43,421 bases of DNA. Source: Desulfobacterales bacterium (GTDB taxonomy: Bacteria; Desulfobacterota; Desulfobacteria; Desulfobacterales; JARGFK01). The notes under the pieces are model-generated. The model did no database searches. It worked only from the letters and a program-made list of their open reading frames with translations, and was not told the DNA's origin. A program made the translations under genes and the position numbers. Positions 4,167 to 23,941 of this stretch are shown here, piece by piece; position 1 is the stretch's first letter, and every line of letters starts with the position of its first letter. The stretch lies in contig JARGFK010000031.1 in the NCBI GenBank assembly GCA_029211065.1, forward strand, positions 1 to 43,421, in the 5' to 3' direction.

Positions 4167-6257
4167 ATGTCCCATAACCAGCTCATTCATGAAAAAAGTC
4201 CGTATCTGCTGCAGCACGCCCATAATCCTGTCGCCTGGCAGTCCTGGTCCGAAGAAACTTTTAACCGGGCCAAAGCCGAGAACAAGCCGATTTTTCTTTC
4301 CATCGGGTATGCCACCTGCCACTGGTGTCACGTCATGGAAAAGGAATCTTTTGAGGATGAAGAGGCCGCACGTTATCTCAACGATACCTTTGTCTGTATT
4401 AAAGTTGACCGTGAAGAACGCCCCGACATCGATGCGGTCTATATGGCCGCCTGTCAGATGATGACCGGCAGCGGCGGCTGGCCCCTGAGCATTTTCATGA
4501 CGCCCGAAAAAAAACCGTTTTTCGCAGCCACCTATCTTCCCAAAAATAACCGTTTCGGCCGGCCGGGTCTGATCGATATCTGCCGGCAGGTACGGGAGTT
4601 GTGGTTGAACCAGAAAGAAAAAATAGACACCTCGGCCGACGGGATTGCATCCCAAATGTCCCGGGCATTTGCCTTTGCCGGAGCGGATGAACCCGATGAA
4701 TCCCTGCTGGACGGCGCCTTTCAACAAATCAAACGGGGATTTGATCCCCAGCACGGCGGGTTTGAATCCGCGCCGAAGTTCCCCACGCCGCACCGGCTGC
4801 TTTTTCTGCTGCGCAGCTTTCATCGCAACGGAGACCCACATGCATTGGACATGGTTACGCGGACCCTGGCGGCCATGCGCATGGGGGGTATCTGGGACCA
4901 TGTCGGCTTCGGTTTTCATCGGTATGCAACCGATGCGAAATGGCTCCTGCCGCACTTTGAAAAGATGCTGTATGATCAGGCCCTGATCGCAACAGCTTAC
5001 CTGGAAGCCTACCAGGTCACCAAAGACCCGTTTCTGGCCGCAACCGCCGAAGATATTTTCACCTATGTATTGCGGGACATGACCTCGACCGAGGGCGCCT
5101 TTTATTCGGCTGAGGATGCCGACAGCGAAGGAGAGGAAGGCAAATTCTACATCTGGACGGCGGAAGAATTTAACCGCGTGCTGGCGGATGAGGATGCGAA
5201 ACGCTGGGGTACGATTTTGCGACTGAGTCCCGAAGGCAATTTCCAAGACGAGAGCACGCACAAAAAAACCGGCGCCAACATCCTGCACCTTACCGCCTCC
5301 CTTGACAAATGGGCGGATAAGCTGGGGTTGCCCCAAGGCCAATTGGACGAAGAATGGAAGCGGATCCGGGATAAATTGTTCCAGGTACGCCGAGAGCGGG
5401 TCCATCCGTTAAAGGACGATAAAGTCCTGACCGACTGGAACGGCCTGATGATCGCAGCCTTGTCCCGGGGCGCCCGGTTTTTGAACAGACCGGACTACGA
5501 GCGAGCGGCCCGCAAGGCTGCTCAATTCGTATTGCTGCGCATGCGGGACAGCGAGGGCCGGCTGTTTCACCGCTTCAGAGACGGCGACCTGGCCATCGAG
5601 GCCCAGGCCGGGGATTATGCCTATTTGATTTACGGCCTGCTCAATCTGTACGGGGCCACCTTTGATATTGCTTTTGCCGAGGAAGCCCAGGCCTTGCAGC
5701 TGAATATGATCAGGGACTTTTGGGATGAGACGGACGGGGGCTTTCTCTCCACCCGCCGGGGAAGTGATGAGCTGCCCGTGCGTCCCAAGGAGTTGTATGA
5801 CGGGGCGATCCCTTCGGTGAACTCGGTCGCGCTTTACAATCTGATACTTTTGGGCAGATTGACGGGTGACTCAAAATGGGAAAAGAAAGCCGGCGAACTG
5901 GTCCGGGCGTTTGCCGGAACGGTGAAATCCCAACCGACGGCTTTTGCCTTTTTTCTGTGCGCCCTCGACTTCGCGCTCCACCCCGGCCGGGAGGTCGTCA
6001 TTTCCGGCAGTTCGGAAGCAGCCGACACAAAAGAACTATTGGCTGCATTGAATCTTAATTTCGCCCCATCCGAGGTGACCGTCGTTAAGTCGGATCAAAA
6101 CGCCGAACGCCTGGCTAAATTTGCCGGTTACACCGACGGGTTGCAGGTGATTGCAGACAAAGCGGTTGCGCATGTCTGTCGCAACGGCTCCTGTATTGAT
6201 TCCACCAGCGATACGCAAACCCTGCTGGATCGGATTCTGGGGCATGCGAAAACCTGA
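4167..6257 (+). CDS. DUF255 / YyaL-type thioredoxin-domain protein
   Basis: This 696-residue cytoplasmic protein matches the YyaL/SSP411 family. The N-terminal thioredoxin-like domain has the characteristic [10 protein letters not shown] stretch with Cys51 and Cys54, and the signature HNPVAWQSW before it. The remainder is a large alpha/alpha barrel resembling N-acylglucosamine epimerase/cellobiase folds, with the family landmarks [23 protein letters not shown] and [11 protein letters not shown]. The family is nearly universal but biochemically undefined. The length is normal and the gene intact. The ribosome site GGAAAGAGA precedes ATG 4167. It shares no obvious operon with its neighbours, though the lipoprotein gene starts 36 bases downstream. 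Confidence 0.92.
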
Positions 6258-19626: not shown

Positions 19627-20030
19627 ATAATCCTCCTTTAGAATGCGATCCCTCACATATCACACCGATCCATCTCAAGCCCGGGCGAGCCAGTGGCGCC
19701 CGCCGCCTTGGGTTTAAATTCCGGTAACGCCTTAATATTATATTTCTATATAAATTTCAATAGTTAATTGGTTGGCGTTTAAAAAAATAGTCTTTTGGAG
19801 TGAAGTTGAAGGAAACAGGTTTTGACGCATCTACATTGGTTTTTTCATCCGGCCGGACTTGAATCGTTTTGAGATTGGCGCTATAAATGATTATTTAGGC
19901 AGTCGCTGTTCGATTCCTGCCCGGGGCAACCCTGAATGTTTCGGAAGATCGAGCTTCTTATGAAAACCTTACGGGTCAACATCCGGCGCTTGACCAAAGA
20001 AAGTATCCTGAGCCGGATTGTCTTTTGTAT
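19627..20030 (+). other. 404-base gap before priA
   Basis: I find no gene with a ribosome site, no repeat and no terminator here. The stretch should contain the divergent promoters of the small membrane protein and of priA. AT-rich sequence around 19730-19790 is the likeliest promoter area. Confidence 0.5.
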
Positions 20031-22472
20031 ATGGTTCATTCCAACAGCTACATAGACGTGGCCGTCGCGTTGCCGGTGTTCGGTACGTTTACCTATCAGG
20101 TTCCGGATAAACTGATGGATGATGTTTCAGTCGGAAAACGGGTTCTGGTGCCGTTTGGCCGCCGCCGGGTAACCGGGTATGTCCTGGGGCCGGGCAAAAG
20201 CTGCGGCCGCACAGAAATGAAATTTATCCAGGAGGTGCTGGACCGCCGCCCGCTTTTTCCGGCAGTTCTCATTCCGTTTTTCGAATGGATATCTTCGTAC
20301 TACCTGCATCCCATCGGAGAGGTCATTAAAGGCGCACTGCCCGGCGGTTTGAATCTCTATGAATATTCGGTTTTCAAACTGACGGAGAAAGGTGAACGTG
20401 CATTGCAAGGAGAAGTCTCCGGCGACCGCGAGGGTGAAGTTCTATCCCAACTGAAAACAGGTTCCGCCCGGCTGAAGGATCTGAACCGGATGCTTCAGAA
20501 AAATATTTCCGAAGCACTCATGGCAGAGATGGAAAAGAAAGGCTGGATTGATCAAAAAACCGAGCTCAGAGGGGCCCGGACAAGGCCCCGCATGGAGCGC
20601 TTTGTTTCATTGCAACACCCGGATGTCCCTCTTCGAAATATTTCGGATGGGAGGCAGAAAATCATTGCGGCCCTTTCATCGGTCGAGGAGGTTGCGTTAA
20701 AAAATCTTAAAGCCATCGTTCCAAACGCCGCAGCTTTGATCCGGTCCCTGCAAAAAGGAGGATATGTCCGGACCCGATACAAAAGGGTGTTTCGAGATCC
20801 TTTTGGTGAATCCATATTGCCTGATACGGCGCCGACTTTGACAGGGGAGCAGCTGGAAGTCGTCACCACGATTTCAGCCTCTCTGGGACGGGAATTTTCA
20901 ACCTATCTTCTGGCCGGTGTCACCGGCAGCGGGAAAACAGAGGTATACCTGCAGCTGGCCGAAGCAGCGCTGACAAAAGGCTATGCGGCCCTGGTGCTGG
21001 TGCCGGAGATCGTACTGATTTCTCAAATGGAAAGGTCTTTTCGTTCGCGTTTTGGCGAACGGATCGCGGTGCTGCACAGCGGCCTTTCTCCAGGTGAACG
21101 CTATGATCAATGGAACCGCATTCTGAATGGTGAAACGCCCATCGTGATCGGCGCCAGATCCGCTATTTTCGCGCCTTTAGACAAGATCGGGCTGATTGTC
21201 GTGGACGAGGAGCATGACACTTCCTATAAACAGGAGAGCGGTCTGCGATACAATGCCCGGGATCTTGCCGTGGTAAGGGCGAAAGAGCATGGGTGCATTG
21301 CCCTGCTGGGCTCTGCCACTCCGTCGATACAGTCCGCTTATAATGCGGATACCAAAAAGTTTATCGAATTGACCCTTAAAGATCGCGTTGAAAAGCAACC
21401 CCTTCCGGAAATCCGGATTGTCGACCTTGGAGAGAACCGGGATGAGCGTGGGGTTCGGCGCTTTATTACACCTGAACTCCACGATGCCATGAAAGTGACG
21501 CTTGGGCGACATGAACAGGTTCTTCTTTTTTTAAACCGGCGCGGCTTTGCCGGGCTGCCGGTTTGTTCGGTCTGCGGCGAAGCCGTACGCTGCAAAAACT
21601 GTGACATTTCCATGACGCTGCACCAGCAGGCCAATGCCTATAAATGCCATTATTGCGGGTTTTCCAGAGCGTTTTCATTAACATGTGATCGCTGCGGTTC
21701 GTCTAAAATAAAACTCTTGGGCCTGGGGACGGAAAAGGTGGAGGCAGCGGTTAGGGCGCTTTTTCCGGAGGCACGGGTTGCCAGAATGGACCGGGATACC
21801 ACTGCCCGGCGCGGATCCATTGTAACGCTTTTGAAAGGACTTAGGAACCGGACAATTGATGTGCTGGTGGGAACCCAGATGATCGCCAAAGGGCATGATT
21901 TTCCGAATATTACCCTGGTCGGTGTTATTTGCGCAGACCTTTCCCTCAGTTTTCCGGATTTTCGGGCCGGTGAACGGACTTTTCAACTTCTGGCCCAGGT
22001 GGCCGGAAGGGCCGGTCGGGGAAAAGTTCCCGGCCGGGTGGTGTTGCAAACCTATAACCCGAAACACTTCAGCATATTGGCTGCGCGGGACCAGGACAGC
22101 AAGCGGTTTTATGCCCAGGAAATTACTTTTCGCAAGGCCCTGAACTATCCACCGTTCTCCAGAATCATTCAGGTCAGAATTGCGGGTAAACACAAAGACC
22201 ATGCCGGTCAGGTTGCAAGGGAACTGGGAGAGGCCTGCAGCGCGCTGCAACAAGGCAGTAAATCCTTTTGCCGCAACATTGAAGTGCTGGGGCCGATTCG
22301 GGCGCCCCTTGCACGGATTGCCCAGGAACACCGCTGGCAGATCCTGATAAAAGGCAAGCGGGCCGGAACGCTTCACCAGTTCGTTCGCCAACTGATAAAG
22401 GATCGGGGCGCGCTGTTTAATCAACGCAAAGCCAAGGTCCTGATCGATGTGGATCCATTTTTTATGATGTAG
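20031..22472 (+). CDS. priA: primosomal protein N' (PriA helicase)
   Basis: I use ATG 20031; a TTG six bases upstream could also start it, and neither has a good ribosome site. The 813-residue protein has the PriA order: N-terminal DNA-binding domain (YIDVAVALPVFGTFTYQVP), winged helix, DEAD-like helicase with Walker A GVTGSGKTEVYLQ and DEEH, then a zinc-binding insertion with four CxxC pairs (CSVCGEAVRCKNC and CHYCG..CDRCG), and the helicase C-lobe with QVAGRAGRG. It restarts collapsed replication forks. The length is normal and the gene intact. Confidence 0.96.
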   Translation: MVHSNSYIDVAVALPVFGTFTYQVPDKLMDDVSVGKRVLVPFGRRRVTGYVLGPGKSCGRTEMKFIQEVLDRRPLFPAVLIPFFEWISSYYLHPIGEVIKGALPGGLNLYEYSVFKLTEKGERALQGEVSGDREGEVLSQLKTGSARLKDLNRMLQKNISEALMAEMEKKGWIDQKTELRGARTRPRMERFVSLQHPDVPLRNISDGRQKIIAALSSVEEVALKNLKAIVPNAAALIRSLQKGGYVRTRYKRVFRDPFGESILPDTAPTLTGEQLEVVTTISASLGREFSTYLLAGVTGSGKTEVYLQLAEAALTKGYAALVLVPEIVLISQMERSFRSRFGERIAVLHSGLSPGERYDQWNRILNGETPIVIGARSAIFAPLDKIGLIVVDEEHDTSYKQESGLRYNARDLAVVRAKEHGCIALLGSATPSIQSAYNADTKKFIELTLKDRVEKQPLPEIRIVDLGENRDERGVRRFITPELHDAMKVTLGRHEQVLLFLNRRGFAGLPVCSVCGEAVRCKNCDISMTLHQQANAYKCHYCGFSRAFSLTCDRCGSSKIKLLGLGTEKVEAAVRALFPEARVARMDRDTTARRGSIVTLLKGLRNRTIDVLVGTQMIAKGHDFPNITLVGVICADLSLSFPDFRAGERTFQLLAQVAGRAGRGKVPGRVVLQTYNPKHFSILAARDQDSKRFYAQEITFRKALNYPPFSRIIQVRIAGKHKDHAGQVARELGEACSALQQGSKSFCRNIEVLGPIRAPLARIAQEHRWQILIKGKRAGTLHQFVRQLIKDRGALFNQRKAKVLIDVDPFFMM

Positions 22473-22510: not shown

Positions 22511-22592
22511 AAGTGAATGCGTATTAAAATATATAGATTGCGGGAGATTTTATGAATTATACGAACCTGAATGTCAGGTAAAGGAGCTTTCA

Positions 22593-23324
22593 ATGAAGTT
22601 TAAAACGTTTCTCATGGCGGTCATTTGTGTTTTCTTGATGGTGACGGTTTCCCGGGCAGAACCAACACCCGCCCCGCAACTCCCGGCTGCGTTTTTGCCG
22701 ATTACCACCTTCAACTTTCCGGAAGTCGTCGAGGGTACCGAGATTGTGCATGACTTTATTATTTTAAACAAGGGCACGGGGCCGTTGAATATCCAGAAGG
22801 TTGAAACCAGCTGAGGGTGCACGGCCGTTTCTTTCACACGGCTGATTCCTCCCGGGGGGGAGGGAAAAATTACGCTTAAAGTGGATTCCAACGGATTTGG
22901 CGGCTCCCGGCTGAATAAAAGCGCCGTTGTCTATACGGATGATCCGGCCAAACCCCGGCAGACCCTGATCATATCAGGACCGGTGGGAGAGTTTGCCACC
23001 ATGATCCCCAAAAGGGTTGTCCTGCGCGGAATTGCCGGGCAGCCCGTAAAGGGCATGGTAACCATCATGCCCAAAGAAAAATATCCGTTTAAAATCACAG
23101 CGGCCATGGCCAGGTATGGGAGTAAAATCCATTTCAAATATGAGGAGATTCAACATTCTGATCCCAAGGGCTATTTGTTGACGGTTGAAAATTTGCAGAC
23201 CCACAGGGGGCGTTATGCCGATACGGTCATTCTTAAAACGGACAGCCCGATCCGGCCGGAAATCACCATTCAGGTTTTGGGGGATATCGCTGACGCAGCG
23301 CAGACGGGGATACCGCTTAAATGA
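22593..23324 (+). CDS. DUF1573 secreted protein with in-frame TGA, candidate selenoprotein
   Basis: The same frame runs from ATG 22593 (AAAGGAG six bases upstream) to TGA 23322-23324, interrupted only by TGA 22812-22814. The first part has a signal peptide (cleavage after SRA, residue 22) and a beta-sandwich start, TTFNFPEVVEGTEIVHDF. The DUF1573 family has a conserved CGCT motif here (typically K-V-x-x-S-C-G-C-T). In this gene it reads VETS-[TGA]-GCTAVSFT, so TGA replaces the first Cys codon and residue 74 would be selenocysteine. The remainder (LIPPGGEGKITLKVDSNG, then a second sandwich domain) is normal DUF1573, with no drift. A nonsense mutation TGC to TGA is the alternative. The next gene overlaps the final stop (ATGA), which fits translation through the whole frame. 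Confidence 0.75.
22822..22863 (+). other. hairpins downstream of the in-frame TGA (possible SECIS region)
   Basis: Two RNA hairpins follow the TGA. CGGCCGT (22822-22828) pairs with ACGGCTG (22838-22844) around a 9-base loop that begins 14 bases after the TGA, but the loop has no G. CCTCCC (22848-22853) pairs with GGGAGG (22858-22863) around GGGG, with the loop 39 bases after the TGA. Bacterial SECIS elements lie about 16-37 bases after UGA and usually have a G in the loop, so neither fits perfectly; I infer possible function only. Confidence 0.3.
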
Positions 23325-23941
23325 AAGCTACCAAGGTTGTCGCCTTTGACTGTGACGGGGTCATGTTCGATTCGGTGAAAGCAAATACAGCATATTATGA
23401 CCATATTTTAGTCCATTTCGGCCTGCCGGTCATGACGCCCGAACAGTTTGTCTTTGCCAATATGCATACGACGGAAAAAGTGCTGGCCCATCTCTTTGAT
23501 GATCCGGAAATGCTGACGGCCGCCCTGCGCTATCGCAGCCGGATGAGTTACCGGCCGTTTGTCAGGGAGATGGAGATTGAGCCCTACCTCAAGCCGTTGC
23601 TGCAGACAATACGCCCCCATTATCATACTGCCATTGCCACCAACCGAACCGACAGCATCGGCTGGGTTATCAGTGACCACGGACTGGAAGGGTTTTTTGA
23701 TTATGTGGTCAGCGCCCTTGACGTCAGATATCCCAAACCGGACCCTGAACCGCTGCTAAAAATCCTGAAACATTTTAGGGTAGCGCCACACGAGGCGCTT
23801 TATGTCGGCGATTCGGAATTGGACGAAATGGCCGCCGGCAAGGCAGGAATCCCCCTGGTGGCCTATAACAATCCCGCCCTCAACGCAGCCTATCACATCC
23901 GGAGTTTGAAGGAGCTGGAAGTCATGCTGGTCTCCGGGTAA
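23321..23941 (+). CDS. HAD-family hydrolase (phosphoglycolate phosphatase-like)
   Basis: The 206-residue protein has the HAD motifs: DCDGVMFDS with nucleophile Asp9, motif II around ATNRTDS, the Lys of motif III (YPKPDPEPL) and the acidic pair of motif IV (YVGDSELDEMAAGKAG). The motif I variant VMFD instead of TLFD is common in this subfamily. A helical cap lies between motifs I and II. Its substrate is unknown. The start overlaps the stop of the DUF1573 gene by four bases, so the two genes are translationally coupled. Confidence 0.9.
   Translation: MKATKVVAFDCDGVMFDSVKANTAYYDHILVHFGLPVMTPEQFVFANMHTTEKVLAHLFDDPEMLTAALRYRSRMSYRPFVREMEIEPYLKPLLQTIRPHYHTAIATNRTDSIGWVISDHGLEGFFDYVVSALDVRYPKPDPEPLLKILKHFRVAPHEALYVGDSELDEMAAGKAGIPLVAYNNPALNAAYHIRSLKELEVMLVSG

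Follow-up and report, generated by a model that had tools for sequence, protein, structure and literature searches.

A well-supported OS_HP2 (DUF1573) selenoprotein gene with an in-frame TGA at its U-G-C motif in a Desulfobacterales genome

The window analysed in this study is a stretch of 43,421 nucleotides of a Desulfobacterales bacterium (assembly GCA_029211065.1, contig JARGFK010000031.1). Its forward strand carries a DUF1573 gene of the OS_HP2 family, lying between a primosomal helicase gene and a hydrolase gene, and the frame of this gene contains an internal TGA codon. The features of the locus are as follows.

20025 to 22472, forward strand: priA (primosomal helicase), the upstream neighbour, found there also in part of the order
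22581 to 22586, forward strand: Shine-Dalgarno-like AAGGAG shortly 5' of the ATG, read from the sequence
22593 to 23324, forward strand: OS_HP2 (DUF1573) selenoprotein gene, 243 amino acids with UGA read as selenocysteine (Sec), ending in a terminal TGA
22593 to 22658, forward strand: probable signal peptide (MKFKTFLMAVICVFLMVTVSRA), assigned by inspection; helix 2-17 of the structure model
22701 to 22985, forward strand: first Ig-like domain, from the DUF1573 and NF041425 matches and the model
22812 to 22814, forward strand: in-frame TGA (Sec74), first position of U-G-C, with Cys76 at 22818-22820
22813 to 22851, forward strand: SECIS-type hairpin, with outer stem GAGGG/UCCUC beside the UGA, inner stem CGGCCGU/ACGGCUG and a 9-base loop
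22983 to 23291, forward strand: second beta-sandwich, residues about 131-233 of the model
23321 to 23941, forward strand: HAD-superfamily (IA) hydrolase, joined to the OS_HP2 stop by an ATGA overlap and a frequent neighbour of the Sec form

The frame 22593-23324 (+) was found to hold a single internal TGA at 22812-22814, corresponding to residue 74, which is followed by GGG (Gly) and TGC (Cys). Reading this TGA as U gives a product of 243 residues, MKFKTFLMAV...VETSUGCTAVSF..., and the terminal TGA at 23322-23324 overlaps the ATG (23321) of the next gene. The initial annotation had described one TGA in a frame open on both sides, placed at the first Cys of the CGC motif, with normal DUF1573 sequence after it and the following gene coupled to the final stop, and our analysis bears out this description. 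The openness of the frame is no proof by itself, since 18 TGA codons in the window are flanked on both sides by at least 60 open codons. The evidence beyond this chance level is homology that spans the TGA codon, as the PF07610 and NF041425 matches both cover residue 74 and the mean identity to 46 relatives is similar before and after it (48.5% over residues 37-73, 52.6% over 77-129 and 42.7% over 131-235). Within this gene UGA has two uses, for Sec at 22812 and for termination at 23322, and the same double use is seen in the relatives L042, L067 and several others.

The product matches Pfam PF07610 (DUF1573) over residues 38-129 with 62.6 bits (cut-off 26.1) and NCBIfam NF041425, "OS_HP2 family (seleno)protein", over residues 37-131 with 134.6 bits (cut-off 100); in the six-frame search the window gene scored 122.7 bits against NF041425, and this model is matched by all the 47 aligned members. 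Membership of the gene in the OS_HP2 family is virtually certain. OS_HP2 has been given as a selenoprotein family of pfam07610 with a UxC motif (PMC2398784), and DUF1573 with UGC is given in reviews of 2022 and 2026 (PMC9312934, PMC13188914); for OS_HP2 the 2026 review refers to the 2007 study on Olavius algarvensis symbionts (PMC13188914). The proposal of a candidate selenoprotein therefore stands as far as the Sec reading is concerned, but not as a novel family, since OS_HP2/NF041425 and its UxC or UGC motif have been known since 2007-2008. The window gene is an ordinary and well-supported member of this already described family.

The family was surveyed in 291 sampled genomes of the host order, with matches in 261 of them (246 above the NF041425 cut-off); the host's own taxonomic family is represented by this genome only in the collection used, and those near relatives that bear names are Desulfobacterales/Desulfobacteraceae. 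Nearly all of the matches listed from this sample have exactly one TGA, and the only 12 among them that lack it all read CGC. The homologous codon was read in 51 copies and is TGA in 39 (window included) and TGC or TGT in 12, so that [U/C]-G-C is present in all 51; in the alignment of 47 proteins residues 74, 75 and 76 are invariant. The initial annotation had asked whether TGA and Cys alternate at this site, and they do: on the maximum likelihood tree of the 51 proteins parsimony counts 7 Sec/Cys changes, of which at least 3 are forced by well-supported branches. Two pairs of Sec and Cys copies from the same genome are sisters on this tree (L061/L072 and L063/L073), one supported clade takes in 6 of the 12 Cys copies, and seven of the genomes read have both forms. 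Four genomes (G031, G165, G114 and G167) were seen to have 8-13 family matches each, which suggests local expansion of DUF1573 paralogues in some genomes of the order. A scan of the genome contig collection with the single protein found no relative, and the alignment-based contig scan gave 80 loci, its sole pattern containing CGC and thus being able to pick up Cys forms only.

The sequence following the UGA folds into a hairpin in the Sec copies. The typical fold starts at the UGA and has an outer stem GAGGG/CCCUC, an inner stem of 6-7 pairs and a loop of ~6 bases. In the window the inner stem (CGGCCGU with ACGGCUG) is shifted in register relative to the relatives and its 9-base loop is without G. 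The window outer stem is seen in the 45-base fold and is replaced by a downstream hairpin in the 60-base fold, in which the inner stem is kept, and the z-scores of the two folds are modest (-0.95 and -1.89, respectively). The inner stem was picked from single folds and its pairs were then counted directly: 87% of the inner-stem cells are paired in Sec copies vs 40% in Cys copies, and when the partner is slid the pairing in Sec copies is 29-55%. Compensatory changes were found at pair 17-28 (C-G to U-A) and at pair 16-29 (U-A to C-G). When the 3' arms were shuffled 10,000 times, the observed pair count was never reached. These controls leave relatedness uncorrected and the stem had been selected on single folds; the contrast between Sec and Cys copies together with the compensatory changes is therefore the stronger evidence. 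The family hairpin after the UGA is read as a SECIS; the initial annotation had named bSECISearch for the 60 bases after 22814, and here the hairpin was assessed by folds and pairing counts. The G that is usual in the loops of bacterial SECIS elements (PMC2398784) is missing from many loops of the family. The RNAalifold consensus on the Sec set gave a weak alternative helix, which was set aside for the stem seen in the single folds. A third hairpin (CCCUC/GAGGG downstream) was unsupported in the register tried, with 68% of cells paired; with the partner slid by one up to 91% are paired, and a third helix may exist in another register, though the coding of PPGGEG constrains that stretch. At the site, Rfam gave no SECIS or other family, and only chance snoRNA matches below the gathering score were returned.

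The machinery for Sec insertion, named as a check in the initial annotation, is present in the host genome, a draft assembly of 4.94 Mb in 269 contigs. It encodes a tRNA-Sec (anticodon tca, 77.2 bits), selA at 610 bits, selB at 392 bits and three copies of selD at 368-375 bits. Each selD copy itself contains a single in-frame TGA close to the N-terminus, in the context GUASK or GUAAK, at the known catalytic Cys/Sec position of SelD. The three copies (L018, L019 and L020) lie on separate contigs (C7, C26 and C37), and with the assembly contamination at 4.29% one of them could be foreign.

The structure model of the product (mean pLDDT 93, pTM 0.78) consists of an N-terminal helix 2-17 and two beta-sandwich domains, and U74-G75-C76 is placed in a loop of the first domain, between strands 65-72 and 76-81. 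Structural matches to the first domain include the HYDIN/CEP192 ASH domains and VesB, whose Ig domain superposes over 96 residues with Z 11.9 and rmsd 1.9 A, and the product also matches PF22544 with 43 bits. The PDB sequence search gave no solved relative, its best hit being 2qsv (E 0.057), which is without the CGC pair, and a lead to a CxC motif in VesC was followed in the literature and nothing was found. Among the relatives, an OmpA domain of peptidoglycan-binding type precedes the OS_HP2 Sec domain in L035, L048 and L052; this N-terminal domain is clear in L035 and L052 and just above the cut-off in L048. These fusions support an envelope location, and together with the hydrophobic N-terminus they point to an exported product. 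The secreted protein supposed in the initial annotation fits with this, and helix 2-17 of the model is, by eye, compatible with a signal peptide.

In case of the gene neighbourhood, a HAD-family hydrolase is downstream in 32 of the 39 Sec copies vs 1 of the 12 Cys copies (by motif, with short flanks at some loci), and PriA is upstream in 20 loci. Neither priA nor the HAD hydrolase suggests a redox link or partner. By names given by eye, three Cys-type copies (L056, L058 and L060) adjoin a small CCGP-motif protein resembling HesB/IscA, and others of the Cys set have HdrA-like or formate-dehydrogenase-like genes nearby, a setting that differs from that of the Sec copies. Elsewhere in the window, at 4167-6257, a DUF255 or DsbH-type thioredoxin-like protein is a possible redox protein.

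On this evidence Sec is almost certainly inserted at the UGA 22812, and the window gene is very probably a selenoprotein, the latter grading being for its identity only and leaving aside any redox role. In the mechanism proposed here, Sec-tRNA(Sec) would be delivered by SelB to the UGA 22812 under the direction of the hairpin starting at this codon, and the RNA pairing suggests that SelB may recognise this hairpin. At the UGA 23322, outside the hairpin context, translation would end. The mature exported protein would then consist of two Ig/ASH-like beta-sandwiches, in which Sec74 and Cys76 would most likely form a reversible selenenylsulfide in the loop of the first domain. This bond could exchange with the thiol or disulfide of a partner outside the cytoplasm, much as proposed for the CxC of CsgC. 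A thiol/selenol redox role of the 74-76 pair, as against a mainly metal-binding or structural one, is given about an even chance, judged by analogy with a periplasmic protein of known potential: CsgC, the curli accessory protein, has a CxC pair on an Ig fold measured at -139 mV, and the potential of the CGC tripeptide is quoted as -167 mV (PMC3173608).

The reading that survives best beside this one accepts the UGA as Sec and differs in the function of U-G-C, which would serve to bind metal, selenide or some cofactor, or merely to stabilise the Ig fold, with no redox cycling; we consider it a serious possibility that falls somewhat short of an even chance. It draws on the conserved neighbourhood, which shows no redox partner, on the Ig fold, which mostly serves binding and scaffolding, and on DUF1573 and PF22544, which are without catalytic annotation. 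On the other hand, Sec is kept in most copies across the order, is swapped only with Cys and always stands two residues before an invariant Cys, which is a better fit to exchange chemistry, and the CxC of CsgC shows that such a pair on an Ig fold can be redox-active (PMC3173608).

Two further readings concern the codon itself. If the UGA were a true stop, a second protein would start downstream at the GTG at 22881, and a mechanical ORF 22881-23324 does exist; this would split the DUF1573 domain (38-129), place the invariant G75 and C76 in untranslated sequence and give no account of the hairpin pairing that is confined to Sec copies, and it is very improbable. The other reading, that a Cys-type DUF1573 gene suffered a nonsense mutation, became a pseudogene or was sequenced wrongly, could appeal to the existence of Cys forms of the same protein and to the draft state of the assembly. 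It is practically refuted, since 38 further copies, spread over many of the order's families, have the TGA at this very codon, and it is further opposed by a hairpin that Cys copies lack, by conservation of the protein on both sides of the TGA and by the full Sec machinery in the genome.

With the Sec reading, the gene bears on a family for which little beyond a name and a motif is on record so far. The family lends itself to testing through the near-universality of OS_HP2 in the sampled order, its OmpA fusions and the occurrence of Sec and Cys sisters in a single genome, as the redox behaviour of Sec and Cys versions of one Ig-fold protein can be compared directly. We tentatively suggest, at rather less than even odds, that OS_HP2 proteins are selenol-disulfide oxidoreductases of wide distribution, in which an Ig/ASH scaffold takes the place of the thioredoxin fold, and that they serve the envelope of sulfate-reducing-type bacteria and are in some species tethered to peptidoglycan via an OmpA domain.

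In comparison to known systems, CsgC and the N-terminal domain of DsbD resemble the window protein in having a periplasmic Ig-like fold with a close Cys pair, which in CsgC is CxC. They differ in that no sequence relationship is shown, and the window pair has Sec in place of one Cys and sits in an ASH/HYDIN-like domain that is followed by a second one. Neither CsgC nor nDsbD is among the structural matches listed for the model, hence the mechanism is drawn by analogy and not by membership. The Ig domains of VesB/VesC and the ASH (PapD-like) domains of HYDIN/CEP192 share the fold of the first domain, whereas their identity to the window protein is only about 10%, and we know of no selenocysteine in them. 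Pfam PF07610 (DUF1573) shares the domain match and the position of the CGC motif, whereas many of its Bacteroidota CGC relatives carry Cys there, as found with a search pattern that takes Cys forms only. The closest correspondence is with OS_HP2 (NF041425), which shares with the window gene the domain, the UGC motif and its place, the alternation of Sec and Cys and the deltaproteobacterial host lineages; nothing substantial sets the two apart, the shifted inner SECIS stem being the particular feature of the window copy.
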